A DNA stretch of 64,000 nucleotides from Sabellastarte sp. h YS-2021 (taxonomy: Eukaryota; Annelida; Polychaeta; Sabellida; Sabellidae). Location of the stretch: positions 135,906,033 to 135,970,032 of the forward strand of contig OZ024931.1 in the NCBI GenBank assembly GCA_964017235.1. Reading direction: 5' to 3'. Under the pieces are notes generated by a model. The model did not search any database, was not told the origin of the DNA, and saw only the letters and a list, made by a program, of their open reading frames with translations. Position numbers and translations under genes: made by a program. The first letter of the stretch is position 1. Each line of letters begins with the position of its first letter. Below, in pieces: positions 15,173 to 62,323 of the stretch.

Positions 15173-15174
15173 AT

Positions 15175-17233: not shown

Positions 17234-17322
17234 TGTTGTATAAGTCAAGTTGGTTTTAAAAAATTAAGACAAGTATACCAAATATAATTGTCATCCAACT
17301 AAACCTGGTGTACTTCTTGCAG

Positions 17323-17418
17323 CTCAGGGAAATTTCTTGGTGGATGAAGTGGGTGATGTCGATGACTCTGAATTTGGTGCAGCATTTGAAAGTTTTGACA
17401 TGCACACAGTGGACTCAG
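17323..17418 (+). CDS. Host gene exon 1 (visible): acidic leader
   Basis: Acceptor TTCTTGCAG, donor TCAG|GTAAGG. It reads GNFLVDEVGDVDDSEFGAAF then ESFDMHTVDS and ends in phase 1, which joins exon 2 to give an Asp codon. The VDEVGDVDD stretch recalls, from memory, acidic motifs next to matrin-type zinc fingers in the MATR3/RBM20/ZNF638 group, but 32 residues are too few to assign a family. An alternative acceptor 5 bp downstream (CTCAG|GGA) is possible. Upstream exons are not identified. Confidence 0.65.
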
Positions 17419-20400
17419 GTAAGGTAGAGGGGGTTTATCACATCAGTCTGTAAAAAATTTATTTTATCCCTGGACAAAAAGTATTGGGTCAAATTGTGTT
17501 TTTTTTTTTTTAGGTTTTGAGCTTACCAAGCAGCTGCAGTTGACTTTTTGGGCTGTTTTTGTCATCTATATAATATGAATAGAAAAATATTTTTAGAGCA
17601 TTTGTGTTCATTTTTATTGCATTAAATTATTCCAGAAATAAAGGAGATTAAATTTTTGAAGGTTAACTTGTTTTGCAAGTATGTACCTCTTAGAGGGCAC
17701 ACACTATAGCAAGGTTATTTTATTATAGAAACTTTACGGTATTTGTGTTCATGAGCCACAATATTAAATGTAGTAAAAAGATTACTGAGGCACCGTTGTG
17801 AATTCATATTGGTAAAAATTGTCAAAAAATTTTTTTATTGCAAGCTACCTAAGTGATCCTTTTTTGTCATATTTTACTCCAGATTTTTCACAAAATTAAA
17901 TTTAAAAGGTGAAAGTGCAAGAGTTTTAATATAAATAACTTCTGCACAAAGTGACAGTCCCACAAATTTGTTTTGCTTTCACTTTGCCATTAATAGATCA
18001 TGATTTCCAAGTGAGCTACAAATCCTAGATATTTTTTGGTAAACAGGACACAACTTGATTGCTTGTTTCAGACATTTTGAAATATTATAAACTCTGTTAT
18101 GGCCATACACTATTATCACTATATCTTGGCGAGGGGGGTTGATTCTGTAATCACATCTTTACAGGGAAAGATTTTTTGTTAAATATTTAAGTGTAATTCC
18201 ACTTTAATAGACACAGAACATGCAGAAGAAGCAGCTGGAATAAATGAAAACACTGAAAATGAACAGATGGAAGGAATAAGGACATCAGATTCTGAAAACA
18301 AGCCTAGTGAAGCAATGGACCAAACTGAAGAACTGCAGAAAGACACTAATGATGGAGCTGAACTTACTACAGGTGCAATAAATGAGGTGTCTAATGTCAC
18401 TGATTATGTTGCCCAGTCAACGGTGAAAGTACGACCCCATAAGGATACTAGTGAAATTCCTGAAGGAGTGGATCATACTGCAGGACAGGAAGATAAGTAC
18501 TTTTATGCAGGTCAAGTTGAGGATAACCCTCTTGCAAAACAAGAAGTTACAGACAGTGCTAAACAGACAGCTGCAATTAACCAAGAAGCAGAGCAATCTT
18601 GTGTGGACAGTATTAAAGTTGAAGAGTCTGGTTGTGGTGACCATGGTGACCAGCTGATTGACAGTGTAAAGTTCCTGGAGAGTTATGCCATGGACTGCAG
18701 TGAGAAGCAGTCTGACGGGCTGAAAGAGAGTGAAGCTCAGGAGCAAGTGGAGCAAGGAAAAGAGATCCCGAGTGAAGGCCAGGAAGGAGTGGAGGGAGAG
18801 AGTTTCAGCTTGAGTGAAGATCAGGTAGAAGCAGATGGCGTAACGGTGGCATTTAGTGACAGTCGGGAGGAAGTGAAGGACAGAGAGTTGACCTTGTCTG
18901 ATGGTCAGGAGAGAGAGGACAAAAATGTGATCATGTGTGAAGATCAGGAGGAAGCAGGCGGGACAAAGATGACCTTGAATGAAGGTCAGGTGGGATTGCA
19001 GGGGGAAAGGATGCCCATGAATGAAGGCCAAGAGGGACAGGAAGAAGAGAATTTTACCTATAGTTATGATCAGGGGGAACCAGCAGTTACCTTGAGTGAA
19101 GTACAAGAGGGAATGAAGGGAGGAGATGTGGCCTTGAGTTATGAGCAGGAGGGAGCAGAGGGGCAAAGGGTGACCCTGAAACAAAGTCAGGAGCGGCTGA
19201 TTAAAGAAGACAGGGATGTAGACATTTATTGCATGCCAGGGGAAGGTATTGGACATGAAGGGCAAATGGTAGAAGGGACTGGCGAGATGATGAGCTTGAA
19301 TAAAGATCAGGAGAAGGTAATGGAGGCAGAAGATAGGGTTACGGAGCTGGAAGACCAACAAGGGGAAGGAAGTGTTGTACATGAGGCAGTGGAAGCTGGG
19401 AATATGGAGGCAGTACAGAAAAATGACACAGAAAATAAGGGGGAAGAGGAGACAGAAGGTGAGGTGGAGGCTGTTAGGGAAGGTCAGATAGAATATACAG
19501 AAAATGATAGGGCAGAGAGTACAATAGATGGAGTGATGTGTGAAACACATCATGAAACTGAAACAACCTATGATGAAAGAGGATCAAAGGTTGAATTAAC
19601 TGATGGCATTGACAGCCAGAGAGTCTGTGATAATGCAGAGATGGAGCAAAATCAGGAAGACGTCACAAGTGGGGACTGCAATATTGAGAGTGAAAGTGAG
19701 AGAAATGAAGATCCAGTTGAAGATACAATGGAGGGGGTGGTGATAAATGATGGAATAATGATTATATCAGATGAACCAAAGATTGGACAAGAAAATGCTG
19801 CAAATGCATTGGCAGCAGAAAAAGATTCTGAGCAAATGGGTGAGGGTGAGGCCAGTCAGGACAGTGAGATAGATTGTATGCAACACCAATTTGAGAAGAC
19901 TGAAGAACCTTTGGAGGATGCCAAAACTGAGGATGTGACAATGGAGAAGGATGAAAAAGTGGAGGAGGCAGATCAAGATGAGAAGAGTGTGGATAATAAG
20001 GATGAAGGACAGATGGTGGAAAACAAGGTTAAAGTACAGATGGTAGAAAACAATGATGTAGGACAGGGGGTTGAAAACAAGGATGAAGGGCAGATGGTGG
20101 AAAATAAGGATGAAGGGCAGAGGGTGGAAAATAAGGAGGAAAATAAGGATGAAGGGCAGATGGTGGAAAATAAGGATGAAGGGCAGATGGTGGAAAATAT
20201 GGATGAAGGACAGATGGTGGAAAAGAAGGATGAAGGGCAGATGGTGGAAAATATGGATGAAGGACAGATGGTGGAAAAGAAGGATGAAGGGCAGATGGTG
20301 GAAAATAAGGATGAAGGGCAGATGGTGGAGAATAAGGATGAAGGGCAGATGGTGGAAAATATGGATGAAGGACAGATGGTGGAAAATAAGGATGAAGGAC

Positions 20401-23400
20401 AGATGGTAGAAAATAAGGATGAAGGGCATATGGTGGAAAATAAGGATGAAGGGCATATGGAGGAAAATAAAGATGAAAATAGGGATGAAGGGCATATGGC
20501 GGAAAATAAGGATGAAGGGCAGATGGTAGGAAATATGGATGAAAATAAGGATAAAGGGCATATGGGCGAAAATAAGGATGAAGGGCAGACGGTGGAAAAT
20601 ATGGATAAAAATAAGGATGAAGGGCCTATTGTGGAAAGTAAGGATGAAAATAAGGATGAAGGGCATATGGTGGGAAATAAGGATGAAGGACAGATGGTGA
20701 AAAATAAGGAGGAAAACAAGGATGAAGGACAGAGTGTGGAAAATATGGAAGAAGGGCAGATGGTAGAAAATAAGGATGAAGGACAGCATGTGGAAACTGA
20801 TGATAAAGAATCCAGCAGTGAACAGAAACAGCAGGTAAGATGATGTGTAATACTCTTCGGATGTGTAGTTAAACTAAATTTCAATAACCAAGGTGAATTG
20901 CACCAATAATTACTCAGATAAAAATGCTGTGGGAATGCTTAGAGAATTATGGCAGACATATTGATGGGTTTTCAAATTTAAACCATTGTGTCAGTCTTAT
21001 GGTATCTGGTGTTATCATGTTTGAAAATTATTCAAGAGTTGATTTGCTGTTTGAAAAATTTTGTTGCAGGGAAAATGACAAAATAATAGGTTTCTACCTA
21101 GACTTACCACTTATAATGTGGAAGTGCCCGACTTCAAACAGGTCAAGTCAAATGCTGAAAAAATTGTAATATAACACATAATTTAACAAGCTTTTTGTAA
21201 GTTTGCAGTATGCATAGTTTTTCTTTTTCAATTTAAATATAAACATAAATTTTTATGCCTGTGATTGAGAATGTCTTTATATTAAATATGACAATTACTT
21301 GCAGTGATTTAATGATGTTAAATAATCTTAAATCTATTCAGTATAGAATGGAAGAAAATCTGATTGAATATTATTAAATCCATTCAGGTGATTATCAACG
21401 TATATTCCAGGCTTTTTGTAAATCCCCCAGTAAAATATCAGGAATTTCATGAATTTACCATCCATTTTTAGGCAATTCACAAATTTTCTAATTGCACAAA
21501 CTCATTGCAACATGCATAGCAAACATATGAAGTGTTTGAATACCATTCCCCTATTATTCAGTCCCTGTGTGATATGTCTTCAAAAAATATCTTAAACAAT
21601 CAGCTTTACCTTTTAGCCAGGTGAATCTGAGAAGACCAAAGCAGACAGTAAATCGGAGGCACAAATTAGCAATGACAAACCCACTTCCTCCACGGAGAGT
21701 GTAAGTAAAGATCAGGGAAGTGCATCCCCAGATTGTGAGAAGCTCATTGCAATATTTGAGTCGTGTGGGAGTGAGGATGCAAATGAGCTGCTGAAACCCA
21801 TAAAAAAACCGCGCACAAAACCCTGGCATGAAGATATGACTGACGTGAAGAGAAACGCTGTGGTCTTCAAGATGTGAGTGTCTACCTTAACAGCAAAACT
21901 TCCCAAATGACATATTCAAATAAATGTATCACAAATCAACATGACAGTAATTGTGTGTAGTACAATTATCGTATTACCCATTTTTACAAGGTTATGTAAT
22001 CTTTTAATGAAGGATGTTTTTTATTTTTCATATTATCCACCAATTTCTATAAATAATCAATAAAATAAATGGATATTTAACGAAATAGTGCAACGAAAGC
22101 TGTGCTTTATAAGTGCTCCAGGTAGTAGTTATTACTTAACTTGTGTACATGATACATAAATATCAACATATATGGTTAAATGTGAATGGTCAGTAAACCA
22201 GGTCAGTTTCTTTTGATCAGTAAATAGGTTTCTGGTTCACCATCTTATGCACTGACCACTTGACATGGAGTGAAAGCAATTTTCCCTTCTGAAGCCAAGT
22301 TGAATAAATAACATAAAATATCAGAGGCTTCAAGCATTTGTAAAGTAACACATTGGTCAGAACATTGTGAGGGTCAGTTTTACTGAGAGAGGTCTGGTGA
22401 GAAAATGTTCCAAGTTTTACAAAATTTTCCAAAATATAAAAGGTATAAGTAGAGTTAGTTATAACTTGCGAAAAATAAATTTTGGTTTCCAGATATTATA
22501 GATACCTGCTTGGTATAAAGTTCTAAAAATTTCCATAAATATATCATCTAAAGAGTATAAATAAAGCATGCATCCTGTTGTAGTTGATTAATCTGTGCTG
22601 AATTTTGCAAAAGACAAGCCAAACAAGGTTCAAAGTATTTTATCGTCTAGGTATTCTTGTATAATCTTTCACAATATTTCTTTGAAATGTTACAAAAAGA
22701 ATCATGCCCAAAAATGTGTATTTTCATACTCATGGCAACAACAGAGTGTTAAAGTCTGCAACCAATTGTTGGTTGCCACAAAACTACCTTCAACTAGTTT
22801 TTCATTAACAGCCCATAAAATAAAAGTAGGCTTCCGTTTCTGATTTCCTCAACTTTATTTCATTTGTTAAACTCTGCAATCAATTCTTAGTTGCCACACA
22901 ACTATCAGATGAACCAGTTTTTACCCCACAGCCCTTAAGGGCTGTCGGGGTATTGTTTTCACCCATGGTGTCCGGATGGGCGGGCGGGCGGGCGGCGGGA
23001 AATAGTTTGTCCGGGCTGTATCTCAGAAACCGTAAGGTGTAGGAAGTTGATACTTGGTAGGGACATTGGTTAGGGTGTGTAGGTGTGCAACGTCATGGTC
23101 TGACCAGGATTTGACCTTTGACCTTGCCATAGTGACCTTGAGTTTAAAAATCTTGTCTGGGCTATATCTCGGAAACCGTAAGGTGTAGGAAGTTGATACT
23201 TGGTAGGGACATTGGTTAGGGGATATAGTTGTGCAACGTCATGGTCTTGATTTGACCTTTGACCTTGGCGTAGTGACCTTGACCTATAAAATCTTGTTTG
23301 GGCTATATCTTGGAAACCGTAGGGTTGAGGAAGTTTTTTTTTTTTTATTTCTTTATTTTTGTTTCTATATGTACATCTAAACTATTCCAGAGAACATGTT

Positions 23401-26400
23401 TAACAGAAAAACAAAGATTTCAAAACAATAACAACTAGCATCAAGTTAATAAACAGTTCAGCGTAACTAGCACATAACCTCAATCGACATTTTCCTGCAG
23501 ATGAAAAGAATAATAAAAAAAAAAAATTTTTTTTTTACATGATATATATGCTCTTTACCCCCCTCTGGTCTTTATGAAACAGTTTACTTATTCATATATC
23601 TGTAAATAGGTTTTGCCAGTCACACCACCTTTTCTCAAAACAAATACTATAGCCTTTAATGTTAACTAGATATTTATGTTCACTATATCTTCTTTTAACT
23701 TCCTTCTGTAGGTGAAAAACATTCAGTGAAAATTTATTCTTTGAACACCAATAGATATAATATCTTGTCAAAATCAGAACAAAGTTTAAAGGCCAAAAAT
23801 TACTGTCATACTTAGAGTATCCAAGTATTTTAGTAGTTTCGTCTAACTTCAAGTTTGCCCCAGTCCGTACAGAGATCCAGTGCTTCAAGTTCTTCCACAA
23901 CTGAGGAAGTTGATACTTGGTAGGGACATTGGTTAGGGGCTGTAGGTGTGTATTATCATGGTGTCACCTTAATTTGACCTTTGACCTTGTCCTAGTGACC
24001 TTGACCTATAAAATCTTGTTGCACCTTTGGGTCTCTCTTTTGATGCAGATTAAGCACTGTTAAAGTCATATTAGAATTTATTAAGAATTTTACTTTCATA
24101 ACTTCCCATTGTAAGAGATAGAATTTCATCAAGTGAGCCACAGATTTTGCTCCAACACCGCACATAAGCATTCATTAAATGTACTACCACTTCTATATGC
24201 ATGGTAATATTCAAACCATCTAAACCATAATTTGGCCATGCAGATGTAGATAAAGAGGGTTGAATTTTAGTTTGCTGATTAATGCTGTCATCTTGTTATT
24301 GAATTATCTTGTTTTAATACTTCATCTTTATATGCATGATCTTTCTTTTAAACATTATTTGGACCTTTATATAACTGACAGTGCTCTGAAAGTATCCTAA
24401 AGTTTATACTGATACAGTACTTCTGTATCTCATGGTGTTGAAAATATTTCCCTAGGCTGTGGGGTACGGGCATCTCTGATGCTATTTTATAGCTTATAAC
24501 CTCATTAACTTTATCCTATTTTCTTGAGGTATGAGAATCTGTGGACATTTTTTTTGCAGGATAAATGCCATTTTCCCTGCGCAGCCAGCATTTCTGAAGG
24601 ATAAGCGGATGAACAACCTGGTGCGTTATGTCTGCATGGGAGAAGCAGAAATCTACTCCACTGCCACCTCCTTGGTTAGTAAAAAGTTCTATCCAATTAT
24701 CCTGAAATATATCGAAAGAGTTATTTTATTGCATTAATACATCCTATCCAATGTACAATTGCTAATCCAGTTGGCGCAGACCGGCCCGCCAAACGCCAGA
24801 AAAAGATGTCCTGTGTTTCCACCGGCTGGCTTGTCCCAGTACTGTGCACTCCTCAGATGGCGCCTCGTACTTCCTTCCTGTCTAGACAACCTGACATCAT
24901 AGCATCTTTTTCATTTGGCGCGTGTACTGTGCAGACGTGTTTTCAACAATCTCCAGATATTTTAAGGAAATGTGTGCATTATGAAGGATTTTCAACCTTA
25001 TATGTGAATATTTTAGTGTAGAAGTGTTATCTGCATATCAAGCACTGATATACATTAAGAAATCTGCTGGAAACGCTCCCTAGTTGACTCAATTTAGTTT
25101 TGATGATAGGGCAGTAATCGACGAGAAATATGAAGGCAGCCATTGTGCTAGTTTCCTCCCATTCAACAATTGTGCTGTTAGGGGCAGATCGACAATATAA
25201 AGAAAAATACTGGATATACTACTTACAAGGTAATTATTCGTGTCTTTGTTGTGATTGTACCTTCTGTAACCTTCCAGCAACAGATCACAAAAACATCATT
25301 CTGTGCAGTATTTAAAACTGTAAATAGAAGGAATTCCCAACAGAAGAGATGTGTTATTCAGATTTCTCAGAGCGCACTGGTCTCAGTTACCAGCCAGCTC
25401 GAGCATTGGGTGTTTTCAACGGGAACCAAGAGACACATCCTTCAGATTTCTTCAGAGCGCACTGGTACCGACTTCTCTGCTGTATAGCATCAGTCACACC
25501 AGCCTAGCTCGAGTATTTAGTGTCTTTATTGCGTTTATACTACCTCCACTAGAATCTTAATCTTCGGAGTGCACTGATCCAGACGTCTTTGCTGTTTAAG
25601 CATTAGTCGACCGGCAAGCTCCAGTTCAGCCGACCTCACAATAGAAATGTGCACCAACACTACGAGTTTTAAAAGAAAAACCGACTTCTCATCCGGATAT
25701 TTACCTTCAGAGTGCACTGGTGCAGGCTTCTCTGTTTTTAAAGCATCAGCCGACCAGCCAGCTTGAAAGAACGCGATCTCTGACGTCATCTTCTCCACGA
25801 AGCTGGTCACGTGATTCACCGACCAGGAAAGTCGGAAGTGCGTTCTTCAGAACTCCCGTCTACTGTGATACTAGTCCCTCTCTCATGGACCCGGCCTTTG
25901 TTGTCTGTAGTGGGGCTTGTAGATGAGCAGAATACTGCGCCTTTGCCTTTTTAAGTATCACAAAAGAATGCGACAACTGACGAGCTGGTCACGTGACACA
26001 CCGACGAGCAATTTCTGTGGTGCCGTTTCTAAAAATAGCTCACAAGGGCTTCCCCACCAACTGTCAAATCTACACAAGTAGACGTGCGCTTACGAGAATT
26101 ATGTCCACCCACTGGGGGGTGGACATATTATTTTTGCTTTTTCCGCCGTCCGGCGTCACACTTGGTTTCCAGACATTTTAGGCAACAGTTCTTATCCTAT
26201 CTTTACCAAATTTGGCATGCAGGTTTATTGGGTTAATAGCTTGTATGGGATTGCTTTTGGTGATGATAGCTGTATAGCTAACTGAGTAATAGCTACTTTG
26301 CTACTTTTGAGTATCTCTTTGGTTTCCAGACATTTTAAGGAATGGTATCAAGCCTATCTTTCTGAAATTTGGTATGGAGGTCATAGATCATAGAGTAATT

Positions 26401-29400
26401 AATTAAATAAATGAGATCATAGAGTAATTAATTAAATAAATGAGTGATGAGTAAATGAGTCATAGATCAGTGAGTAATTAATTAAATAAATGAGTAATGA
26501 GTAAATGAGTCATAGATCGGTGAGTAATTAATTAAATAAATGAATGATTGGCTATTTTGAGTACTGAAAAAGGCAAATGTGCTCATATCTCCTAAACCGT
26601 GCGAGATAGAACGATTTCGTGGAAATTTTCGACCCACAGGGTATCTAAGGACTGTAATCTTTGCAATTTTCAAAAAATTTTCCCCTCCCCAAAAATGGCG
26701 GCCATTTTGAATTTTCGAATTTTTGCCAAAAATGGCAAAACACAAATTTGCTTCTATCTCCTTAACCGTGCGAGATAGAGTGATTTCGTCGAAATTTCAC
26801 AGGGTATCTAAGGAATGTACTCTTTGCAATTTTCAAAAAATTTTCCCCTCCCCAAAAATGGCGGCCATTTTGAATTTTCAAATTTTTGCCAAAAATAGCA
26901 AAACACAAATTTGCTTCTATCTCCTTAACCGTGCGAGATATTGCGATTTCATCGAAAGTTTCAACCCATAGGGTATCTGAGCATCGTACTCTTGGCAATT
27001 TAAAAAAATTTTCCCCTCCCCAAAAATGGTGGCCATTTTGAATTTTTGCCAAAAATGGCAAAACACAAATTTGCTTCTATCTCCTTAACCGTGCGAGATA
27101 GAGCGATTTCGTCGAAATTTTCAACCCACAGGGTATGTAAGGAATGTACTCTTTGCAATTTTCAAAAAATTTTCCCCTCCCTAAAAATGGCCGCCATTTT
27201 GAATTTTCGAATTTTTTGCCAAAAATGGCAAAACAAATTTGCTTCTATCTCCTTAACCGTGTGAGATAGAGCGATTTCGTCGAAATTTTCGACCCACGGG
27301 GTATCCGAGCAATGTACTCTTAGCAATTTTCAAAAAATTTTCCCCTCCCCAAAAATGGCGGCCATTTTGAATTTTCGAATTTTTCCCAAAAATCTGACAA
27401 GCTAAATCTCCATGCATGGCTCTTCAAAGAGGAGCAACCAGATCAGTCAATGAGGCAAAGTGGGCCATATTTAGAGTGGTGCCTCAGTAATCAGGTGGAC
27501 TTCAGAGCACCCCCTGTAAAGTCAGTTGCTGATTTCCTTATATACCCTTTTCAGGATAGGAAACTGCAGCCTAGCACCATTCATGGTACAGGTCAGCCAT
27601 TGCTAATAAACTGGCAAACTCACCCATTAACATCAGCAATGATGAAAACCTCACTTGTCTGCTGGATAGTTTCCACAAAGACAGACCCAAAGCCGGAGGG
27701 AAATCCCTTCCTGGAACCTCTCTCTGATCTTGCACCAGCTGACAAAGGCTCCTTTTGAACCAATTAAAGAGGCCTCCTTGAAGCATTTGACCTTCAAGAC
27801 AGTTTTCCTCTTGGCCTTTGGGTCAGGCAAGCATAGAAGTGAGATACATGCTTGGCAAAACAGAAAGATTAGACACCAATCCTACTGGTCAAAGGTGTTC
27901 CTGTATGAATCATCCAGCTCTCTTTCCAAGAAGCAGCTGTCCAAAGAGGGTCCCGACAATGTGGCCCCAGTGGTTATACCACTCTTGGCCCCAACTCTGA
28001 ATAGGTCCCTCAAGTCTGACGGGTCCCTTTGTCCGGTTATAGCATTGCGCTATTGTTTGGACAGGACCCCACAATTTGGCAGAATCAGGAGTTGGTATTT
28101 TTCTCCTTTAAGAAAGGTTTTGACAAAGACATCTCGCCTGCCACCATCTCCTCTTGGATCAAGCAGATTGTGATCCTATGTTATGAGCTCTCTGACCAGG
28201 AGGCCCACACTTTACATCAGGTTAAAGCCCATGATGTCAGGGCCTTTTGTTTATAAGGCATTCCAGTCAGGATTTTCCTTAAAACAAATCTTATCAGCCT
28301 ACCACTGAAGTCACATAGTACCTTCACAGAGAGTTCTATCGGAAGGGTGTGGCTTGGGCTGATCCAGAGCTTTATCACTTGGGCCCAGTAGTGGCTGCTC
28401 AGGAGATCCACAGGTGGCCCTTAGATTGAGGAGATTTGTATATATGTACATAGTGTAAATAGTGCTACATGTACATAGTATATAAAAAAAAACAAAAAAA
28501 AAACAAAAACTGTGACATGCTTCCTTCGGGAGGTTTAGTTGCCTTCTGGGACTGAACTCATCCCTCTCTTCCCCTACCTCAGAGCAGGTCTGCTAAAAAG
28601 GGGGGGGGGGCTATGTCGGTGTAGCCCGGGTAGCTTGCTGCTGGTAACCGACCATGGCCTTACAGGGTTTCCTGACCCTAAGGTCAACCCAGGCCTGGGC
28701 CTATAGGTCTCCTGACGAAGTCAGCCTAGACCGTAGGTTTAAATTTACTATCATTTGTGAGTTCACATAAGTCCCTAGTAACTTACCCGCCAGCCAAGCG
28801 GTAGTTATTCAGCAATTGTCTATTGGATAAGATGAATTAATGCAATAAAATTGCAAATTTAATATGTAAATTTAATACCCTATCCAATGGACACACAAGA
28901 CCCTCCCTCCGACCCCGCTATCAACTTACTAGGGGTCTAAGAGGTTTAAACAACGAAAAAGATGCTATGATGTCAGGTTGTCTAGACAGGAAGGAGCTAC
29001 GAGGCGCCATCTGGGGAGTGCACAGTACTGGGACCGGCCAGCCGGTGGAAACACAGGACGTCTTTTTCTGGCGTTTGGCGGGCCTGTCTGCGCTGACCTG
29101 ATTAGCAATTGTCCATTGGATAGGGTATTAACTTATAAAAATTTAATTTACTTATTAAATTTGCAATTTTGCAGGTGTCAAGGCTTTGAATCCATCAAAA
29201 TAAAATTAGAAAAATACAATCAAGGTGTTAAATTTTTAAGAAGAGTGTAAATAAAGTATTTCCACTTTTGGTCTGTCACATAGCTTTTACATGTTGGTTG
29301 GAAACAAGTGGTTGTATCTTGTGGCTATTTCTGTTGCAAGATCATTTGATGCTTATTGGCCAAAAAAATTATTCATTGCGATGTTGAAAACACCATGGCT

Positions 29401-32400
29401 GAGATCTTGAATGTCAGAATCTTAAAATGGAAACAACAGACTAAAATTAAAAGTCATGCGTAGTTGACAAATAAAATTATAAATAGTTTGTTTTAGATAA
29501 TTTGTGAGAAAAATCAATGCAGAAAAATGATTCTAAGTTCTGTCTGTTTTGAATTCTGATTAAATAATTGTTTATATTCTTTATCCCAGAACAACTATTG
29601 TCATGATCTCCCTTTGTTCTTATCAACAGAGTGAATACTACAAGTTACTGGCAGAAAAAGTGAATAAAACCATCACACAGCTACAGGAAAAGCGGAAGAC
29701 ACGCTTACAGAAACAGGCGACAGAGACAAAGACAGGTGCAACCAAAACCAACTCAACAGAAGCCGAGAAAACTTCTCAAACTGAGTCGAAAAATGAATCT
29801 GAAAGAAAAGACGTTCTAACCAACAAAGAAGAAGACCAAACAAAAGCAACATCAAAAATGGAAACTGAAAGTGGGGCAAAACCAGCCACAGATAATGAAA
29901 CTGAAACAGGTGTAACAGAGGAAAATAAACCACAGTGGGTCAGACTCACTCGGTCTCAACGGAAAAGGAGGAGACGACAAGGTATGTACGACTACTCCAT
30001 AATGTAACAGTTGTATGTGGCAATTTTTGGCCAGCTGTAAATATTTCTTGAAGTATTAGTTTTACTTGCTTGATTGAATGTATGTATACTTCTGAAATTG
30101 CCAAACTGTAAAATTTGCGAATTTTAGGTAGCTTTTGCATTTAGGTCTACTTTATTTGATAAGTTTGATATATTCTAATTCTAATTTGACTTTTATAGCG
30201 CTTAATCTCCACTGAGTAGTGGACTCTTAAGGAGCAACAAGACAATAGCAGTATGCAAAATTCAAAGTCCAAGGACAGGAATTGGTCAGCACCACAGAGA
30301 AGCCATAAGAGAAAAAGACCTAAGGAGGATAAGCCTTTGCGTAGAGATAGGTTTTGAGCTTCTTTCTAAAAGAGGTAATAGTGGGTGATGCACGAATGTC
30401 TTCAGGCAGTGAATTCCAAGCATCAAAGGCGAAACTGAAACCAAACTGCTTAGTGGACTTGTGAATTTTAGGTTGAAACTTTGGAACATTAAGGAATTAA
30501 GATACCTCAAAAACTTATGGACGGATTTTGATGAAATTTCCAGGATATGTCTAAAAAGGTAAAAGGACCACTATATGGATCTTCTGGATCCATGAAGTGT
30601 AATTTTTAAAGACAGATACCTCAAAAGTTATGGATGGATTTTGTTGAAATTTTCCGAAAATGTCCTAAATGGGACAAGGAACAAGTGATTAGATGTTGGG
30701 AGTAATCTGGATCCAGGCTGTCAGATAATTTTAGGATGGATTTTGATGATATTTTTGGATTATGTTAGAAATGGTAAAAGGAAGACGTAAGAAAAGAAAG
30801 AAATGATTCAATTTTGCAAGTGATTATCTGGATCTTCTGGATCCATGAAATGTAATTTTTTAAAGACAGATAACTAAAAAAGTTATGGATGGATATTGAT
30901 GAAATTTTCAGGAAATGTCCTAAATGGGACAAGGAACAAGTGATTAGATTTTGGACGTGATCTGGATCACTGTCTGGATCCAGGCTTTTAATGGAAGTTA
31001 TAGCCAGATAATTTTATTTTTTTTTAATATACTGCAGTGACATTTCAAACAATCAGAGGTCACATGACCAAAAATGTCTTTTTTTGATGGGTAATCTTGT
31101 CCGGATGATAACTTAAAAGGGATTTCATCAATTCACCTGAAACTTGGTAAGTACATTCATTCTATTAAATTCTGGAAATCATTAGATTTTGGCGTTGATT
31201 AGTTAAGAAATGGCTGAGTAATTAATGATAAATTAATCATTATGAATTTTCCAAATAAGGAAAATACAGAAATGCTTATATCTTGAAAACCGTGCTAGAT
31301 AGAGGGATTTCGCCGAAATTTTTGACCCACAGGGTATCTCTGCATAGTAGCATGCCAATTTTTCAAAATATTTTTGTCTCACCAAATATGGCGACTGTTT
31401 TGAATTTTTGAATTTTTTTGCAAAAATTGCAAAACACAAAAATGCTTATATCTTGAAAACCGTGCTAGATAGAACAGACTGTGCTGACTTTGGTTGTCAC
31501 AACAGTATAAGGCTAGAAACGAAGCATTTTCTTAATACTTTAGCACTCACCTTTATATCCTTTTCGGGATGCTTTGTTTTTGCTGTGCAAAAACATTATC
31601 TTTTTTTTTGCGAGTGATCCTCTAGTTAAAACTTGAGCTTTCCCACTTGGCACTTGTCCTCTGGTCACACCTACTCTCCTGAATTTTACTAACCTAGACC
31701 GTCCCCCACTATCCCTTTGTACACTGATTTTGTTAACCTAGTGCACCGAGTTCTTCATTGTGGGTAAAACATTCCACCTACAGAGCAGTAGAATAGATTA
31801 AATATTACTTGCCATACATTGCACATCAAAACAATACAATGAAATTAACTGCTGTACATGGGTATATAATAAGTGTATGCTGAAAACTCTTTATCTTTAT
31901 TTTCAATGTATCCTTGGCCTTGTGTTGAGTTTCTGTTCCTCCATTTTACTATTTAGTCGCAAAACAAGTGAATGGTGCATCACAGATCACAGAGGGCATG
32001 GCAACAGGACAGGAAGCAGCCACAGGAGAGACAGTGATGGAGGGGGATGAGGGGGATTCCAGTGAGGGTGAATGGGTTACCACAGAGGTAGATAGCTCAA
32101 ACAAGGAGGCAGAAAGCGTTCCCAAGTTGATGGAAGGCATTGAAAGTGGTACAGGAAACCAAGGGACCATGGAAGAGAAAAATGTTGACGGAGAACCAAT
32201 GGAAATGGATGAAAAGCAGGTGCCAAAAGAAGGCAGTCAGGCTGAAAGTAAAGGTGAGAGATTGAGAGTGTTCTCTGCATAATGTTGAACGTACAACTAT
32301 TCTTTCACCAATCTGCTGTAGGGTGGCTCCCTCTCTCAACCAGCATCATTGTTGTTAGGTTAGGTAACTGTTCTCTGAAGTATGTTATTAAGCGGCCCGT

Positions 32401-35400: not shown

Positions 35401-35446
35401 TATATCCCCAGACGAAAGTCGGGGATATATTGGATTCAGGTCCGTC

Positions 35447-35489
<43 letters not shown>

Positions 35490-47400: not shown

Positions 47401-50400
47401 CCTTCCTTCTCACCGGTCAAGGCACCGGTACCGCATCAAGCTCCCGCGGGAGCTCTCTCTCAGGCACCTTTTCTCTTATCATCTGTCCCTTCCGGCCAAG
47501 CCGGCCCGGCTTCTGGCCCGGATAGGATAAAACCTAGTGCCACTGTCACTACCAGCTCAATAGCTAGGACGTCTCCTCTAGAAGGCCTTTATTCTGAACA
47601 GGACCCGGAACCGGTATTCTCTCAACAGAGTTCTTCCGGCCCGGTGGCCTCTGCTTTTCCTCAACCTCCTCCGCAATCCAGCTTGTTCAAGTCAGCTCCG
47701 GAGCACTTTGAGGAAGGTGAGGTATCTGACCAAGAAGACGTCACTGACCATCCTGATCAAGAATCTCCGGACTTGGATAAGACATTGAGCGAAGATCAAA
47801 ACTACAGAGAGACTGTTAGGGGAGTGCGTGCATTCATGGGCTGGTCACATATCCCAGATCTTGAATATACACCAAGTTCCAGGTCAGACAATCCCTGGAT
47901 TGGCCACCGGGCACAACCTGTAGGCAAGGTCTCTATCGACTCACCACCAGAGGACTGGCTTTGTAAAAAACTTGAAAATTTAAACCTCGTCCTCATAGAA
48001 GGGTACCCGTCCAAGTCTACGGAACCGGGTGGACTTCATGTTGATCAGTATCTCCGCCCCCCCAAGTCTCAGGCAAGGTGGTACGGGATTCATCCCGCTG
48101 AAAATAAAGACATCACTAGGCCGGGCAAATATGTAACTACTTGGCCCAATGACGCTGCGAAGTTGAACAGTTCCTTTGCCCGAATTGGTAAACCTGCTCT
48201 TGCTTCATCCCAACCCACCTCCCGCCCTATTGCTCAGGATACGCTCCGGAAGTGGGAGAAAGCAGCAAAAGAGACCAGTTATATTTGTAACCAGTCCGCT
48301 GGTTTCAATAGGTGCACCACCAAAATACAAGACTCTGTACAAGAACAGTTACAAATTCTTCAGACAGAGTTGGGAAAAGGAAAATCTTCCACGAAAGCTC
48401 AGGGTGCACTTGATGAGTTACATTTCCTGTCTGCATTCAATCAAAATGTGAGTTTCGCGGTTGGCAAACCCCTCCAACACCTCTCAGATTTTACTTTTAT
48501 ACAAATGGCTAATTTAACTCTGGTCAGGAGGGATTCTTATCTTGAGCACCTGAAAGCTGGCGTCAAGCCAGATACCTTTTCCTCCCTCAGGAACTGTCCT
48601 CTACAGACCAAGGCTTTGTTTCCGGACGACATTATCCGGAGGGCGGAAGATGAAATAGCAGCATTTGAGTCACACAAGCGTACCAACCAGCCCGGTTCGG
48701 CCCGTGGTGGGTTTGCCGGTACTCAAAAGAAGCAACACCGTTACCAGCCATATTCAACATGGAAACAGGATGATTCTGGAAACTCCGGGGCTCCCGGCAA
48801 AGAGATGCCTGCATGGAAGACATTTGGCAATCGCGGGAGAGCCCGTGGCAGAGGCAGGGGAGGTCAACCCGGTCGCGGTTCGCGCCCTGCCAAGGATGCT
48901 AAGGCGTATAAATGACAATCACTGCAAAGTTCCTCCGGAAGTAACATCCTGTCTGGAGTTTGGTGTTGTGGATGTAACAAAGACAAGTCTTCCTGTTCTT
49001 GTGAAAGACTCTGTAAATTGTCACAATGTTGCTCATCATGTACTTTCTGTAAAAAACATCAGGCAGCCGCAAAAGAAAGGCATAAGTCCAATCTTAAACT
49101 CACAAAATACAATAAAGTATGTGAAAAGTGCTTCTTTTGTAAATCACTGTGTCTTTGCCCCAAGTGTGTCAAATGTCCTCAGTGTTGCAAATGTCCAATC
49201 AGTAGGGGGACGCCTACAAAATTTTTGGAAAATATGGGCTCTCAAGGGTGCAAACCCGAAGGTAGTATCCATCTTGAAAGAGGGCTATGTGCTTCCCTTC
49301 AAGGTCAGGCCTCCCTTAATAAGGGAACCCCTGATAGTAAGCGGCTATGCAAACCCCACCAGAGACTCCCACTTACAAGAAGCAGTGCAAGCTCTGATCA
49401 AGAAAAAGGCAGTAGAGAGGGTCAGGGTTCGAACCTCACTAGCCTTTTTCAACAGATTGTTCATTGTCCCAAAGCCGAACCAAAAGTGGCGGCCAATCTT
49501 GGATCTCAGTACTCTAAATCATTTTTTATGCGTAAAAACATTCAAAATGGAGACTCCAGAGACAATCCGGACCTCTCTACAACAAGGGGAGTGGGTGTCA
49601 TCGATAGATTTCAGCGACGCCTACTTCCACATTCCAATCCACTTCACATCCCGAAAATTCCTCAGGTTCCACTTCCAGAACCAGTCGTACCAGTTTCGGG
49701 CTCTTCCCTTTGGCCTTTCAACAGCTCCCATGGAGTTCACTGCTGTGGTCAAAGAGGTCAAGTTAATGGCTCAGTCACAGGGTATAAGAATCCACCAGTA
49801 CCTAGACGACTGGTTGATTCGAGCCCCTACCAAAGAATCTTGCCACCAGGGAACCCAGTCCCTCCTAGCCCTTTGCCAGGAGTTGGGCTGGATGGTAAAC
49901 ATGCAAAAATCAGAACTGGAACCCCAACAAATCTTCGATTTTGTAGGCTACCAGTACGACCTGCTCAACGGACTGGTCAGACCTACTCAAAACCGTTGGG
50001 AAGCCCTTCAACAAAAAATAACAGGGCTATTACAGAGGAGATCTTGCCGAGTGAGAACCTTCATGTCTCTTATAGGTCTACTCACTGCGACAGAGAAACA
50101 GGTGCCCCTAGGCAGACTGCACATGAGACCTATTCAGTGGCACCTCAAGAAACACTGGAGAGTCCCGGAATCTCTGGAAAAGGAGATCCCAATTCCGAGG
50201 TCTCTCCATCAGCACCTGCAGTGGTGGACCCAGGAGAAAAATGTCCTAAAGGGTCAACCCTTACACCCCCTACAACACGTGATACAAATCTTTACAGACG
50301 CCTCAAAAGAAGGCTGGGGTGCTCACTTAGGCGACTTCACAGCAAGCGGTACTTGGTCAGTGCCCGAAAGCAAGTTGCACATAAACTTCTTAGAGCTAAA

Positions 50401-53400
50401 AGCCGTGTTGTTAGCACTAAAAAGATTCCAACAATTAGTGCAAGGAAAGCTCGTCCTGATTGCCACAGACAACACCACAGTTGTGGCATACATCAACAAG
50501 GAGGGAGGTATGAGGTCAGGTTCACTTTGTGCCCTTCTTTGGCGGCTCCTATGTTGGTGCAATCTCAGACAAACAGTACTGAAGGCCAGACATATTCCGG
50601 GCCGTCTGAATGTAATTGCAGACAAGTTGTCTCGCCAGGGACAGGTCATTCAGACAGAGTGGTCCCTCCATCAGGAGATCTTCGACACCCTTTGTCGAAC
50701 TTGGCATTATCCCCAAGTGTACATGTTTGCAACAAGGTACAACTGCAAACTAGTCCGGTTTGTGTCCCCAATTCCAGACCCAAAGGCCTGGTCAGTGGAC
50801 GCTCTGACGCTGTCCTGGGAAAACCTGGACATGTACCTCTTCCCCCCAGTGTCTCTGATGGGGAAGGTGGTCAGCAAGCTGTCAGACCATTGGTATCACA
50901 GAGCAATCCTGATTGCTCCGGGATGGCCAAACATGCCTTGGTTTTGGGTCCTAGTGGAGCTGTCGGCCATGGTTCCTCTTTGTCTTCCACACCATCCAGA
51001 TCTAGTGACCCAACCTTTCAACAAGGCACGTCACAGGGATCTGACAAGCCTAAATCTCCATGCCTGGCTCCTAGAGCCCAGACCATCAAGGAGCAAGGGT
51101 TCTCTAGCCCAGTGGCGGCAAGAATTGAGGCGCCTCAAAGACGTTCAACCAGAGCAGTCTACGAGGCAAAGTGGGCCCTTTTTGTTAGATGGTGCGAAAC
51201 AAGTCAGGTGGACTTCAGGAACCCATCTATAAAACAAATAGCAGATTTCCTCCTGCATCTTTTCCAGGAGAAGAATCTCCAGCCCAGCACTATTGATGGT
51301 TACAGGTCAGCCATTGCAGACAAACTGGGAAATGCCTCGGTTAATGTTGGCAAGGATGACAATTTGACTAGACTGTTAGACAGTTTTCACAGAGATAGAC
51401 CCAAAGGGCGCCGGGGGGTTCCTGCTTGGAACCTCTCCCTGGTTTTACACCAGCTTACAAAGGCGCCTTTTGAACCACTCAGAAAGGCTTCTCTGAAGCA
51501 CCTTACTTTCAAAACTGTTTTTCTCCTAGCCCTGGCTTCGGGAAAACGCAGGAGTGAGATTCACGCTTGGTTAAACAAAAATATCAGACACCAAGCTGAC
51601 TGGTCCAAAGTTTCCCTCTACCCTTCACCAAGCTTCTTGGCGAAAAATCACTTGGCAAAAGAGGGACCAGAGTGCGTGGCCCCGGTGGTCATCCCGGCTT
51701 TAGCCCCCACTCTGGATAAGTCGTTGAAAGAAGACAGATCCCTTTGCCCCGTTCGGGCTCTTCGCTACTACCTGGACAAAACCCAGGACCTAAGGACGGG
51801 AAAGGAGTTAGTTTTTGTTTCTTTCAAACATGGTTTTAACAAGGACATCTCTCCTGCCACTATCTCATCCTGGATCAAACAAACAGTAGTGTTGTGTTAT
51901 GATCTTTCTGACCAAGATACCTTGACCTTACATCAGGTTAAGGCCCATGATGTTAGGGCATTTGCGGCCTCCAAAGCCTTTCAAGGTGGCATATCTCTGG
52001 ACCAGATTCTAGCAGCATGCCACTGGAAGTCCCACAACACCTTTACACAATTTTACCTTAAGGATGTTGCCTGGGCCGATAAGGAGCTTTTTCACTTGGG
52101 TCCTGTGGTGGCTGCCCAGCAGATCCACCACTAGTCCTCTAAGCTTCTTTGTATATAATTATATATAGTGTACATACTAGTTAGTTTTAGGTGTAGGCTC
52201 ACCTTTAGCCTAGGCCTTGGCTTCTCAAAGTCGTTTACTTCAGAATAATCCTCTGGGTATAGGACTTTCCCCACTCCTCCAGGTTAACCGTGGGAATCAT
52301 TGCCTTGAACTCTTACTCTCTTCCTCCCCTCAGAGCAGTCAAAAAGGGGGGGGGGGGGGGGGCAGGTCTAGTTACCCTCGAGACTAACATGTCTCCTCAA
52401 AGGGCTAGAACCTCACACCTAGGCATAATATAAGAGTTCTCTCCAATCCTCAGAAGGCTGCCCTCCTTCCACTGGGTAGTTATTCTAGCTATCGTCTGGT
52501 AGGTAAGATGTATTAACGCAATGAAATTGCAAATTTTAATTAGTAAATTAAATTTTTATTAGTTAATACCTTACCTACCAGACGGGAAATTCCCACCCAG
52601 CCTTACAATTCAACCTTAGGGACGAAAAAGATGCTATGACGTCACGTCCCTCTGGCGAGTGAAGCAGGAACTAGGCCACCTGGCGAGTGGAGTGTAGTGT
52701 ACCGGTCCTGCCGGGGGTGAAACCCAGGACGTCTTTTCTTTCGTTTGGCGGGACCGGCTCGCCGGGCTATAGCTATCGTCTGGTAGGTAAGGTATTAACT
52801 AATAAAAATTTAATTTACTAATTAAAATTTGCAATTTTGCATTAGTTGATTATCTTTGGTCAGTTATATAGTTATGCATTATAACAAAAACTGTTTTGTT
52901 TTCTAATAATGTTTATCTTAATCTGTTTTCTAATTATATTGTCCCACTGAACCTCTCTAACAATACAGGGGTGCAACCATGGGGCTAATTACAATTAAAT
53001 ACCCAGATTTCACACTTAATTACGTGAATTACTTGCTATCACATATTAGAATCATACACTGAAAGACCATAAAGTAACTACTCAGGCTTGAACTATTTTT
53101 CTTTCATCCTTTCACTGGGAGGCCAAATATTTCAATATTTGTGGATTAAAGTAAAGCTTATAATAGAGTTTTTGTAATGACTTTGATCAGAAAGGCTTGA
53201 TGTATCATAAATAATCCAATGAAAGATATGACATTTATGTTGTTACATATATGTTTATTCATTTTAATGTTCTAGATTGATCCTTCTTTATATCACTTCC
53301 TGAAATGTAACACCTTTATTCCTATTAGTTTAATCACTTATTATTATGCTAAAAAAATATCCAATATAGGTTATAAACTAAGTCTTTTCAATCAGTATCA

Positions 53401-56400
53401 GCTTTTCATATTTATTTATTTGTACATTCTATGGCTTGGGTCATTGAATGTACACATTCAGTGACTTTAGCTATTGAATGTACACAATCCACAGCTCAGC
53501 CATTGAATGTATACATTCAATGATTTGCCCATTGAATGTACACATTCAATAGTTTGTGCCATTGAATGTATACATTTTATTGCGTTAATACATCCTATCC
53601 AATGGACAATTGCTAATCCGGTCGGCGCAGACCGGCCCGCCAAACGACAGAAAAAGTCGCCTTATATGAGTGCATAATGCCCCCACAAGCGTTCCGGTCC
53701 CTGTGTGTGCTCGCAAGGTGGCGTGTCGTACTTCCTTCCTGTCTAGACAGCGTGACGTCATAGCATCTTTTTCGTTTGGCGCACGTGTGTGTGGACGTGT
53801 TTTTTCATCAGCTCTCGCAAGTTATTATATTGGTGTGTGTTAATTTAATCAAGGAACTTTATTTTATTTGAAAAGAATTTTGCTTCATTGTGGATATAAT
53901 GGCATCTCCTGGTCAGCGTAGGGGAGTTTGTGGACACGCCATGGCTGGCTTTGACCAGCACGCGCATTGTGCTCGTTGCAGGGACAAAAAGAAAGGGTCT
54001 GACCCTTGTGTTAAAGGAAATATCTGTCCTTCATGCAATATTCTTACTGAAGAACAAAAACTACGCTTAGCCACCCCAGTTTATCAAAATAAAAAGGAAA
54101 AGAAGGAAACTAAAGCGGCTATGGAAGAGTGTACGTTAGTCGACCCTGCCCTAGTTTCTGTGCTGGGTGTATCTACAGATACCGGGATTAAGAGCTCAGA
54201 AGAGGCGAGTAGCAACATGGAAGTTGTGAAAGCTAAGAAGCACATGCAGAGCTCAGAAGAGGCGAGTAGCGTTTCGTCTAACGTGAAAGCCAAGAAGATT
54301 AAATCCCCTACAACCTCCAAAGAAAAACCGGAAAAGGGCAAGAAACGCCAGTCTTCTCCCAAGCCGTCTAAAGCGTCTACAGAGAGTAAACTGGAGGCAA
54401 TGGATATTAAATGGTTAGACCGGTTTAACAGACTGGAAGCTATGTTGTTATCTAAAAGTCTTTCCCAACCGGAACCAACCTTTCAACCAGTGAAACTCTC
54501 ACCGGTCAGGCCATCCCCTGCTGGCATCTCTGAAACTGTTAACCCCTTTTTTGCTCCGACTACCAAAGTGCCTTCATCTCATGAGCAAGGGGTAAAATCT
54601 CTATCTACTGACCACCCTTCTGATATGCCAGTTCTCAAGCCGGTGGCCGGCTCATCAGGATTGTTAAGTTCTCAAGCCCATTCTGAACCGGAAATGGATG
54701 TCGACAGTGCATCAGAATCTGCTTCTATGCCAGATTTGTCGGTTAAAGGTGAAGAAGGTGAACTCTCAGATCTTGATCCGGATAATTCACTCTCTGATGT
54801 TGACCAGGCCCCGTCAATGCGAGGTATCAGAGCTTATATGAACTGGAATCACATTCCAGATTTGGATACAACTCTAGCCAGTGCTGAAGACAACCCCTTT
54901 GCCGCCCCTAAGATCCAACCGGCAGGGAAGATCAGTGTACAACTACCTACGGATGATTGGCTATGCCGTAAGATGGATAGACTAAATCTCACATTAACGC
55001 AAGGATACCCTTCTAAAGGGTCTGAACCCGGTGGACTGCAAAGGGACCAATTCATTAAACCTACCAAGTCGCAAGGAAGATGGTATGGTTTACATCCCAG
55101 TCAAGACAAACCGGCTGGTTCTGTCTCCTTCTGGCACAGTGACAATGCAAAAATTAACAGTACTTTCAGCAGAATTGCCAGATACTCTGCTCTCTCATCA
55201 CCAGCTCCTGCTTCACGCTTTATTGCTCAGGACACTCTTCGCAAGTGGGAGAAAAGTGCACGTGAGGCCTCCTACATGTGTAATCAAGCTGCGGGTTTAA
55301 GCAGATGCTTAAATAAGGTTCAACAGGAAATGTCCGGCCACTTAAAGGTCCTTCAAAGTGAACATAGTAAAGGCAAGTCTGCCAGTAGAGTCAGTAGTGC
55401 CACGGACGAGCTACAGCATCTCATGCATTTTAACTCTTCCATTTTTCAATGTATGGCGAAGACGATGGAACATCTATCAGATTTCGCATTTGTGAGCATG
55501 TACAACTTCACCTTGGCCAGACGAGATTCTTACCTCGCACTGGTCAAACCGGGCATCAAACAGGATACACTGGCTTCCCTCCGGCAGGCCCCTATGCAAT
55601 TGGATACTTTATTCCCTGATCTTGTGTTGAAAAAAGCAGAGGAGGATATTTCCAAATTCGAGGATAGAGGCCGGTCTCACCCTGGTTCCACTGGCCGAAA
55701 GGACTCACGTTTCCACCCTTATAAGAAACCTGAACAATCCTATCAAGAAAACAAACAGACTAGGCCTGCCTGGAAGAATATTGGCAGATTTCAAAAGAAA
55801 AAGGCTAAATTCCAGGGGCAGAAGTACTCCTCGCGACAGGCCCGGGGATACAATTCATTTAAATGACAATCAAAGTGCAGACCTTCAGTTGAAGGTCCAG
55901 GGCAAAAGACAGGAACTTTGCAGTGGAGTACCGGATCAGCAGACCGGACCGGACTCCAAACAGACTTTAATTCATGTGTCAAGAAATTTAAACTCTGTAA
56001 ATTCATTTGTTGTTTCTCCTGCACCTTTTGCAACCGGGCAGCCGCAAAAGAAAGGCATAAGTCCAGTGTCTGTAAACTTAAACAAAGTTCAGCCATTAAA
56101 ATAATATTATTATGTGAACAATGCTTTGTTTGTAGATCACTTGTGTTCTGTAAAACCTGTAGCAAATGTCCCAAATGTTGCTCCCAATCTTCCTGTAGGG
56201 ACCAGACTTCAAAACTATTGGACAAAATGGTTGGATCTGAGTGCAAACCCAATAGTAGTTCAAATCCTAAGGGAGGGCTACCACCTTCCCTTTCGGATCC
56301 GACCCAGGTTAACAAGAAATCACATGGTCATAAGCTGCTATGTAAATCCCCACAGGAACAGCTACCTGGTAGAGGCATTGCATCAGCTTATAGCCAAAAA

Positions 56401-59400
56401 TGCAATAGAAATCGTACAAAACCCCAAATCTCTAGGCTTCTTCAACCGACTATTTCTAGTTCCAAAGCCAGACAAAAAGTGGAGACCTATACTGGATCTG
56501 AGCAAACTCAATCTTTTTCTCAAGGTGGAGAAATTCAAAATGGAAACCCCGGAAACCATCCGGACTTCCCTCCAACAAGGGGAATGGGTCACCTCAATAG
56601 ATTTCAAGGACGCCTACTTTCACATACCCATACACCAGAGGTCTCGAAAATATCTCAGATTTCATGTCCAGGGCCAGACCTACCAGTTCAAAGCACTTCC
56701 CTTTGGCCTTTCAACAGCTCCTATGGAGTTCACTGTAATAGCCAAGAAAGTGAAGCTGATGGCTATAAGCAAGGGTATAAGAATCCACCAGTACCTAGAC
56801 GACTGGTTGGTGAGAGCCAGCTCCCACCCCCTTTGCCTTCAACATACCCAAAAGCTGGTCCAGATTTGTCAGGAACTGGGCTGGTTGGTGAATGTAGAAA
56901 AATCAGAACTCGAACCCAAGCAGGTCTTCGAATTTGTAGGCTATCAATTCGACCTCCAGTCCGGACGGGTCCGACCTACTCCGGACCGGTGGCGAGCCCT
57001 TCAAGGGAAGATACAGACTCTCCTGTCACTTCCGGCCTGTCCGGTCCGGCAGTTCATGTCCTTGATAGGCCTGTTAACAGCCACAGAAAAGCAAGTCCAT
57101 TTAGGTCAACTACATATGAGGCCCATACAGTGGCACCTCAAAAACAATTGGAGGGTACCAGAATCTCTGGAGAAAGTTATTCCATTTCCCAGATCACTGC
57201 ACCCCCACTTAAGGTGGTGGCTGGAGGAAGGCAATGTGCTACAAGGTCAACCATTACACCCCTTAAAGCATGCTCTGCAAATTTTTACAGACGCATCAAA
57301 AGAAGGTTGGGGCGCTCATTTAAACGAACGCACTGCAAGAGGCCACTGGTCACTGCCGGAAAGCAAGTTACACATAAATTATCTAGAACTAAAAGCAGTG
57401 TTCCTAGCCTTAAGAGAATTCCAGGACCTCTGTGTAAACAATATAGTACTAGTGGCCACCGACAATACAACAGTGGTGGCCTACATAAACAAAGAGGGAG
57501 GCATGAGGTCAGGCCCACTCTGTGCCTTACTATGGAGAATCCTGACCTGGTGTACCAGGAAACACGTGACACTGAAAGCCCGACACATTCCGGGTCGGCT
57601 GAACGTGGTGGCAGACAAGCTGTCCAGATTAGGACAGACCATTCAAACAGAGTGGTCCCTCCTTCCGCATGTATTCGAAGCAATATGCTACAGGTGGCAC
57701 CGACCTCAAATAGACCTCTTTGCCACCAGATTCAACAACAAGCTACCTCTCTTTGTGTCACCCTTTCCGGATCCCATGGCCTCAGCAGTGGATGCACTCA
57801 GCCTACCATGGGAGGATCTGGACCCTTATGCCTTCCCCCCAACAGCCATATTGGGCAAGGTAGTGGAGAAGTTGCAGGACTCCCAGTGCAGCAGAATCAT
57901 TCTGATCGCCCCAGGGTGGCCAAACATGCCCTGGTTTTGGGACCTGGTAGCCATGTCCAGTCAAATCCCACTGAGTTTGCCCAAGCTGCCCAATCTGTTG
58001 ACTCAGCCCTTCAGCCAGACCCCTCACAGGAATCTGACAAATCTAAATCTCCATGCTTGGCTCCTAGAGCCTCAGCAATCAAGGAGCACGGTTTCTCTGA
58101 GGAGGTGGCAACAAGAATTGAAGCTCCTCAAAGAAAATCAACCAGATCAGTCTATGAAGCAAAATGGGCCATTTTTACAAAGTGGTGCCTCTCTAATAAG
58201 GTGGACTCCAGAGCACCCCCTGTGAAGGCAGTAGCTGATTTTCTTATGTACCTTTTTCAGGACAAAAAGTTACAGCCCAGTGCCATTGATGGTTACAGGT
58301 CTGCCATTGCTGATAAATTGGGGAATTTCCCCATCAATATCAGCAAAGATGACAATCTCACTCGTCTTCTGGATAGCTTCCACAGGGACAGACCCAGGGG
58401 CAGGAGGGGAATCCCTTCCTGGAACCTCTCCCTGGTTCTACATCAATTGTCAAAACCACCCTTTGACCCAATTGGGGAAGCCTCTTTGAAGCATTTAACC
58501 TTCAAAACAGTCTTTTTGCTAGCCTTAGGGTCAGGCAAACGTAGAAGTGAGATTCATGCTTGGCAAAACAAGAACATCAGACACCAATCTGATTGGTCAA
58601 GGGTGTCCCTGTACCCCTCACCCAGCTTTCTCTCAAAGAATCAGCTGGCCAAGGAGGGCCCAGAAAGTGTGGCCCCAGTGGTTATACCAGCCCTGGCCCC
58701 TACTCTGGATAAGTCCCTCAAGTCTGACAGGTCCCTCTGTCCAGTCAGAGCTTTGCGCTACTATTTGGACAGGACCTCAGATCTCAGGCAGAATAAGGAG
58801 TTGGTTTTCGTCTCCTTTAAGAAAGGGTTTGACAAAGACATCTCCCCTGCCACTATCTCCTCATGGATCAAGCAGACTGTGATCCTATGTTATGAGCTCT
58901 CGGACCATGATTCCCACACTCTACATCAGGTCAAGGCCCATGATGTCAGAGCCTTTGCTGCTTCTAAGGCCTTCCAATCGGGAGTCTCCTTAGAACAAAT
59001 CCTGTCAGCTTGTCATTGGAAGTCACATAACACCTTTATACAATTTTACTTAAAGGATGTGGCTTGGGCTGACTCAGAGCTTTACCATCTGGGCCCTGTA
59101 GTGGACCACCAGCAGTCCAACACATAGAGGAGATCTGTACATATGTAGATATCTGTACGTCTGTATATATTGCACATATAATTAAGAAGTAATTAAAAAA
59201 AAAAAAAAAAAAAAAAGTCTTCTCATTTGCTTCCTTGTGGGAGGTTTTTAGGTTTTATGGGACTGAACTCAGCCCTCTCCTCCCCTAGATCAGAGCAGGT
59301 CTCTAGGCGACAAGGGGGGGGGAGGGGCGGTCGGTTCTGACGGTTCAAACCCGAATAACGGTTAACCGAATGATGATATCCGACCAGAGCCTTTAAGGTT

Positions 59401-62015: not shown

Positions 62016-62230
62016 GTCAGCGGTGGTTTTTATGCTTTTACCATTGAATTAGTGTTAGATCGAAGAAATTTTCAAAACCCTTTGATGGAGTATATAGTAG
62101 ATGTAAATACAATGAGAAATATAGCTTATTTGGAAAAATGGGCATAAAGAAATGGCATGTTGACCAAACATAATATAAATACAGGCTGTTAAGCAATTGT
62201 GTGCTATATTTTATGCATTTGGTGTTAAAT

Positions 62231-62303
62231 TTGCAAATTTAAAAAGTAAATTAAATTTTTATAAGTTTATACCTTGGTAAAACATATTAAGGCAATAAAA
62301 ATG
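62231..62303 (-). mobile_element. Minimal DIRS fossil: only the two outer ends
   Basis: 62,231-62,273 matches the inverse of the DIRS B right end (AAGTAAATTAAATTTTTATA and flanks, about 41 of 43 bases). It is followed at once by GGTAAAACATATTAAGGCAA, similar to the inverse of the DIRS A left end. Order and orientation equal a complete DIRS element on the minus strand with almost nothing between its ends. The same order also occurs in an internal complementary region only with the halves swapped, so it is not simply one of those. Confidence 0.6.
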
Positions 62304-62323
62304 TATTTTTTTGCATACTGGTT

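Follow-up and report, generated by a model that had tools for sequence, protein, structure and literature searches.

The results reveal a real spliced gene that carries a real CBP-class KIX domain in a non-CBP setting, with one groove of that domain altered. The gene lies on the + strand at 17323-62015 of a 64-kb window (the whole stretch of annelid DNA analyzed, 64,000 nucleotides from Sabellastarte sp. h YS-2021), and all evidence for it was drawn from this window. The 14 phase-consistent exons of the earlier note were confirmed when the model was rebuilt from AG/GT borders: every exon has an AG acceptor and a GT donor, all 13 junctions are in phase, and splicing gives a product of 1510 aa with no stops. 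The acceptor of exon 3 was fitted to the frame, using 21617 (score 1.5) rather than the frame-breaking site 4 nt downstream at 21621 (score 4.9). Because more than one frame is open in each of exons 1, 8, and 13, their frames were set by the neighboring exons. The product is incomplete at both ends: exon 1 opens at an acceptor, making it an internal exon, and the exon-chain search described below yielded no credible exon farther upstream, in 1-17400 (score 1.3 versus 4.1 on the reverse strand). At the other end, exon 14 has a weak donor, the alternative being a last exon that runs to the TGA at 62045-62047, with an AATAAA at 62294. Exons 7, 8, and 11 have phase 1-1, so each could be dropped without a change of frame. 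The exons are as follows.

Exon 1, 17323-17418, + strand: AG/GT borders and an open frame; encodes QGNFLVDEVGDVDDSEFG...
Exon 2, 18211-20834, + strand: 875 acidic aa, with a 9-aa tandem repeat of ENKDEGQMV type at the end
Exon 3, 21617-21873, + strand: start of the KIX domain (KPWHEDMTDVKRNAVVFK), with Pfam and PDB matches; acceptor fitted to the frame
Exon 4, 24560-24674, + strand: middle of the KIX domain (INAIFPAQPAFLKDKRMNNLVRY...); donor gttagt, score ~0
Exon 5, 29630-29981, + strand: end of the KIX domain (SEYYKLLAEKVNKTITQLQEKRKTRL), then the basic cluster RSQRKRRRRQ downstream
Exon 6, 31957-32253, + strand: acidic linker; recovered by the exon-chain search
Exon 7, 40034-40093, + strand: 60 nt, phase 1-1; weakly supported by itself
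Exon 8, 40286-40348, + strand: 63 nt, phase 1-1, all three frames open; weakly supported by itself
Exon 9, 42202-42343, + strand: start of proposed module 1 (MQMLYLKGL...); no RRM match
Exon 10, 42701-42816, + strand: remainder of module 1 as proposed (AVLLQFACSTDCESAGKEM...); this module scores at the level of shuffles
Exon 11, 43793-43861, + strand: 69 nt, phase 1-1, with a weak donor; passed over in the exon-chain search
Exon 12, 44792-44912, + strand: start of proposed module 2 (RTVVFIGIPEGCTESDVW...); PNMA RRM-like match at E = 0.17
Exon 13, 60438-60558, + strand: middle of proposed module 2 (DFVDLYFAQFDTAVAAKDAADW...)
Exon 14, 61916-62015, + strand: weak donor; not recovered by the exon-chain search

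The coding signal was compared with chance by an exon-chain search that used the amino-acid frequencies of average protein composition, none of them taken from the window, and generic splice-site weights that we set. The search covered 29991-46300 and 59201-64000, skipping the stretch with two retroelement copies. The best chain scored 135.8; the reverse complement gave 13.6, and 20 dinucleotide shuffles reached no more than 15.3 (mean 7.1). The exon set as a whole is better than chance. Six of the 13 chain members are exact model exons (6, 8, 9, 10, 12, and 13), and exon 7 was recovered with its acceptor shifted by 2 nt and in another frame; exons 11 and 14 were missed among the nine model exons within the stretch searched. 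The other six members (starting at 34381, 35412, 38877, 39519, 62336, and 63670), which lie outside the model, scored 0.3 to 6.0 and were not accepted. Exon 6 alone contributed 50.1 to the score. Exons 9, 10, 12, and 13 stood out as well (13.9, 16.8, 8.7, and 16.9), with a sum of 56.3 that is well above the shuffles, and at least these four are real coding sequence. The scores of exons 7, 8, 11, and 14 (6.7, 5.9, 2.8, and 2.6) showed no clear step over the spurious members, and because they hardly outscore these, the case for each of the four is made by its frame and position, not by its score.

The KIX domain encoded by exons 3-5 is, by sequence, of the CBP/p300 class. These exons matched the Pfam KIX model (PF02172) with E = 1.1e-14 and 54.9 bits (gathering cut-off 27) over profile positions 3-80 of 81, and KIX_2 with E = 5.6e-06 and 26.6 bits (cut-off 25.6); because PF02172 scored 54.9 bits and KIX_2 26.6, we assign the domain to the CBP class and not to the other Pfam KIX model. 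The earlier note had recognized a KIX domain by eye, and its pieces do occur in the order and spacing it described. A PDB sequence search with the KIX exons returned eight matches at E ≤ 1, of which the top six were p300 and CBP KIX chains (best match, a p300 KIX chain, E = 5.9e-21) and the remaining two were chemokines (E = 0.63 and 0.84). Over 84 aligned columns, 42 are identical in CBP and 43 in p300; the single gap falls in the loop that follows helix 1. The fold-stabilizing cation-π pair of KIX described in PMC3936767, Arg-600/Tyr-640 in CBP numbering, is kept in the new domain. Glu-636 is likewise kept, although equating it with a residue in the passage of PMC3936767 is a guess.

The binding grooves were compared in CBP numbering, which was checked against the residues and helix limits given in PMC3305381 and PMC2717803. 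The residue lists in PMC3305381 assign 12 residues to the c-Myb groove and 6 to the main MLL groove. All six of the latter are kept (I611, F612, R624, L628, Y631, and L664), whereas only 5 of 12 are identical in the c-Myb/phospho-KID groove, a comparison that takes one sequence and CBP numbering and in which the host's own CBP could share the same changes. The changes in the c-Myb groove are mild at three positions (L603V, L607M, and I657V) and not mild at four (L599K, H602A, Y658N, and K662T); in the second MLL groove, three of five residues are kept, with M639I and I660T differing. Likeness to the CBP/p300 KIX covers the main MLL groove as well as R600 and Y640; the differences lie in the protein context and in the c-Myb/phospho-KID groove. 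According to PMC2717803 and PMC3305381, the phosphoserine contact is made by Tyr-658, in the groove of helices 1 and 3, and earlier work cited in PMC2717803 found that Y658A abolishes the phospho-KID complex and that Y658F cuts its affinity 3-4-fold. Judged from sequence, the new KIX lacks the CBP-like phospho-KID contact set, with Asn in place of Tyr-658 alongside L599K, H602A, and K662T. We predict no binding of phospho-CREB-type ligands but possible docking of MLL-type helices. A CBP-class KIX placed in another protein, with changes mainly in one of the two grooves, would represent a natural experiment on separating the functions of the grooves.

Our preferred reading, to which we give an even chance, is that the host gene would encode a large adaptor, mainly acidic and probably nuclear, with a CBP/p300-class KIX domain outside CBP/p300, in which recognition of phospho-CREB would be lost and MLL-type docking would persist. 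The kept groove would dock MLL-type activation helices, and the altered groove would no longer read phosphorylated CREB-like ligands. Because no acetyltransferase was seen in the window, such an adaptor would either compete with CBP for these activators or deliver them to the binding partner of its C-terminal part. The 875 aa encoded by exon 2 are acidic (D+E 29.4%, K+R 9.1%). At 19989-20796, this exon contains an in-frame 27-bp tandem repeat that encodes 9-aa units of the ENKDEGQMV type, and DEG(Q/H/P) occurs 23 times in the exon; we guess that the length of the repeat may vary among individuals. The sequence RSQRKRRRRQ after the KIX domain is a basic cluster of putative nuclear-signal type. 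A nuclear role is plausible from the KRRRR cluster and by analogy with the usual behavior of KIX proteins. Pfam searches of the product encoded in the window, which covered 1236 of the 1510 aa (604 + 632; everything except 274 aa in the tandem-repeat part), gave no match to TAZ, bromodomain, HAT, or ZZ, and NCBIfam gave nothing credible. No relatives of the KIX domain or of exons 9-14 were found in viral contigs, nor of exons 7-14 in prokaryotic genome contigs; because these collections are viral and prokaryotic, the absence of relatives says little. The protein could quite possibly already be in the databases as an "uncharacterized protein."

The earlier note had proposed that the KIX domain is joined to tandem RRMs and that the protein could tether activation domains to the splicing machinery or to RNA, a reading we regard as rather unlikely. 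In its favor are the strand-helix-strand pattern seen by eye in exons 9-14, the RNP2-like segment VVFIGIP, and the profile score and PNMA match of module 2 given below; the segments quoted in the earlier note, VVFIGIP and DFVDLYFAQF (called RNP1-like there), are present. However, their identity as RRM segments found no backing from Pfam, because no Pfam RRM model matched at E ≤ 10 with long or short pieces of module 1 or 2; of the two models named for the KIX-RRM product, PF02172 was significant and PF00076 gave no match at E ≤ 10, an outcome that the earlier note itself had set as counting against its RRM half. The PDB set searched includes RRM chains of PTB, Matrin-3, RBM20, and ZNF638, and the whole C-terminal region matched no RRM in it, the sole match being bacterial RdgC (E = 1.1), whereas a profile of both modules, as well as module 2 alone, matched nothing at E ≤ 10. 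The claim that the two modules are RRMs thus has no support from RRM models or structures.

We also scored the modules with our own RRM profile, for which 15 RRM segments were taken from PDB chains, and with 500 shuffles per module (404 and 379 of which yielded a score, the others being counted as lower). Module 1 scored -0.2 bits, and 41 of 500 shuffles scored as high, which places it at the level of shuffles. Module 2 scored 5.2 bits, a value reached by 1 of 500 shuffles, but its best piece covers profile positions 43-70 only; the controls (the KIX domain and two other pieces) scored at most -0.1 bits. The start of module 2 also showed a weak likeness to the N-terminal RRM-like domain of PNMA (E = 0.17, 12.8 bits, under the cut-off of 27), which was not seen with shorter pieces. 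AlphaFold2 of exon 12 alone gave one short helix and no strands, at a confidence too low to weigh either way (pLDDT 55.5). Against the RRM reading, the RNP1 aromatic residues, judged by eye, are missing at one of two positions in module 2 and at both in module 1. The two modules aligned with 23% identity and many gaps, and BLAST of one against the other returned, among the matches listed, only the stretch common to both pieces and short ones with E of at least 0.64; together, these results leave the modules unsupported as copies of one domain. From the profile, Pfam, and PDB results, we regard the strand-helix-strand pattern as a by-eye reading. Overall, module 2 may be a divergent RRM-like domain; for module 1, such a fold is unsupported.

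We consider it unlikely, to the same degree as the two-gene arrangement discussed below, that the product is a so far unnamed animal protein combining divergent RRM-like modules with a CBP-class KIX whose phospho-CREB groove is lost and whose MLL groove is kept, and that it would carry activation domains to chromatin or RNA with no acetyltransferase involved. KIXBASE recognizes three categories of KIX proteins, CBP, MED15, and RECQL5 (PMC5668377), and PMC12129344 describes TFIIS and REXO1/Rex3 as further ones. REXO1/Rex3, with KIX, CHORD, and a DEDDh exonuclease (PMC12129344), resembles the new product in having a KIX within an RNA-related protein but differs in that no exonuclease or CHORD match was found in the parts of the product searched (1236 of 1510 aa); in the text of PMC12129344, twin RRMs are described only in vertebrate REXO5, without a KIX there. 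Term searches of the main text of the KIXBASE paper (PMC5668377) and of the text of the KIX review PMC3936767 found no RRM or RNA-binding, and no KIX-RRM protein appeared among the literature matches listed, a set that covers few subscription papers. Within these matches and KIXBASE, the statement in the earlier note that no named family has the KIX-RRM order is not contradicted.

Module 2 and a VDEVG stretch in exon 1 presumably resemble the RRM proteins Matrin-3, ZNF638, and RBM20, but module 2 matched none of their RRM chains in the PDB set at E ≤ 10. The stretch FLVDEVGDVDD of exon 1 (exon at 17323-17418) is similar to what we take to be a VDEVG-like motif of matrin-3/ZNF638-type proteins. 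It gave no Pfam match, and a literature search for VDEVG returned, by title, no matrin-3, ZNF638, or RBM20 work among the matches listed.

Exons 1-6 are linked to exons 7-14 by phase and strand only, and a match of phase at any single junction has a chance of ~1/3. The window could therefore hold two adjoining genes, the first with the KIX domain (exons 1-6) and the second made up of exons 7-14, an arrangement that we hold to be improbable. The gap of 7780 nt between exons 6 and 7, the intron of 15525 nt inside module 2, and the weakness of the bridging exons 7 and 8 speak for two genes, whereas the single strand, the fit of phase at every junction, and a gap that needs no stop or start speak for one. 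It is very improbable that the KIX exons belong to the true CBP/p300 gene of the host or to a partial copy of that gene in decay, because despite ~50% identity to the CBP/p300 KIX, the searched 1236 of 1510 aa lack any TAZ, bromodomain, HAT, or ZZ match, the 1510-aa frame is open without a stop, and Y658 is replaced.

Scanning the window for Rfam families and tRNAs gave nothing. Two same-strand retroelement copies, at 46966-52134 and 53872-59127, lie in intron sequence between exons 12 and 13. Their RT/RNase H ORFs matched RVT_1 (E = 1.9e-22 and 2.8e-22), and their first ORFs, gag-like by position, had no Pfam match. The end of the third ORF in both copies looks by eye like a tyrosine recombinase, and we take the elements to be DIRS-like; the one third ORF searched gave no Pfam match at E ≤ 0.001. 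Between exons 4 and 5, an intronic fragment at 27324-28173 is akin by eye to these third ORFs, with which it has QPSTI.G and SLKHLTFKTVFLLA segments in common. The region upstream of the gene (260-13127) contains many tandem arrays with periods of ~133 to 351 bp. The 351-bp array occurs again at 35828-36955, within the intron that separates exons 6 and 7, with a CGC run nearby, as at 8198-8223.
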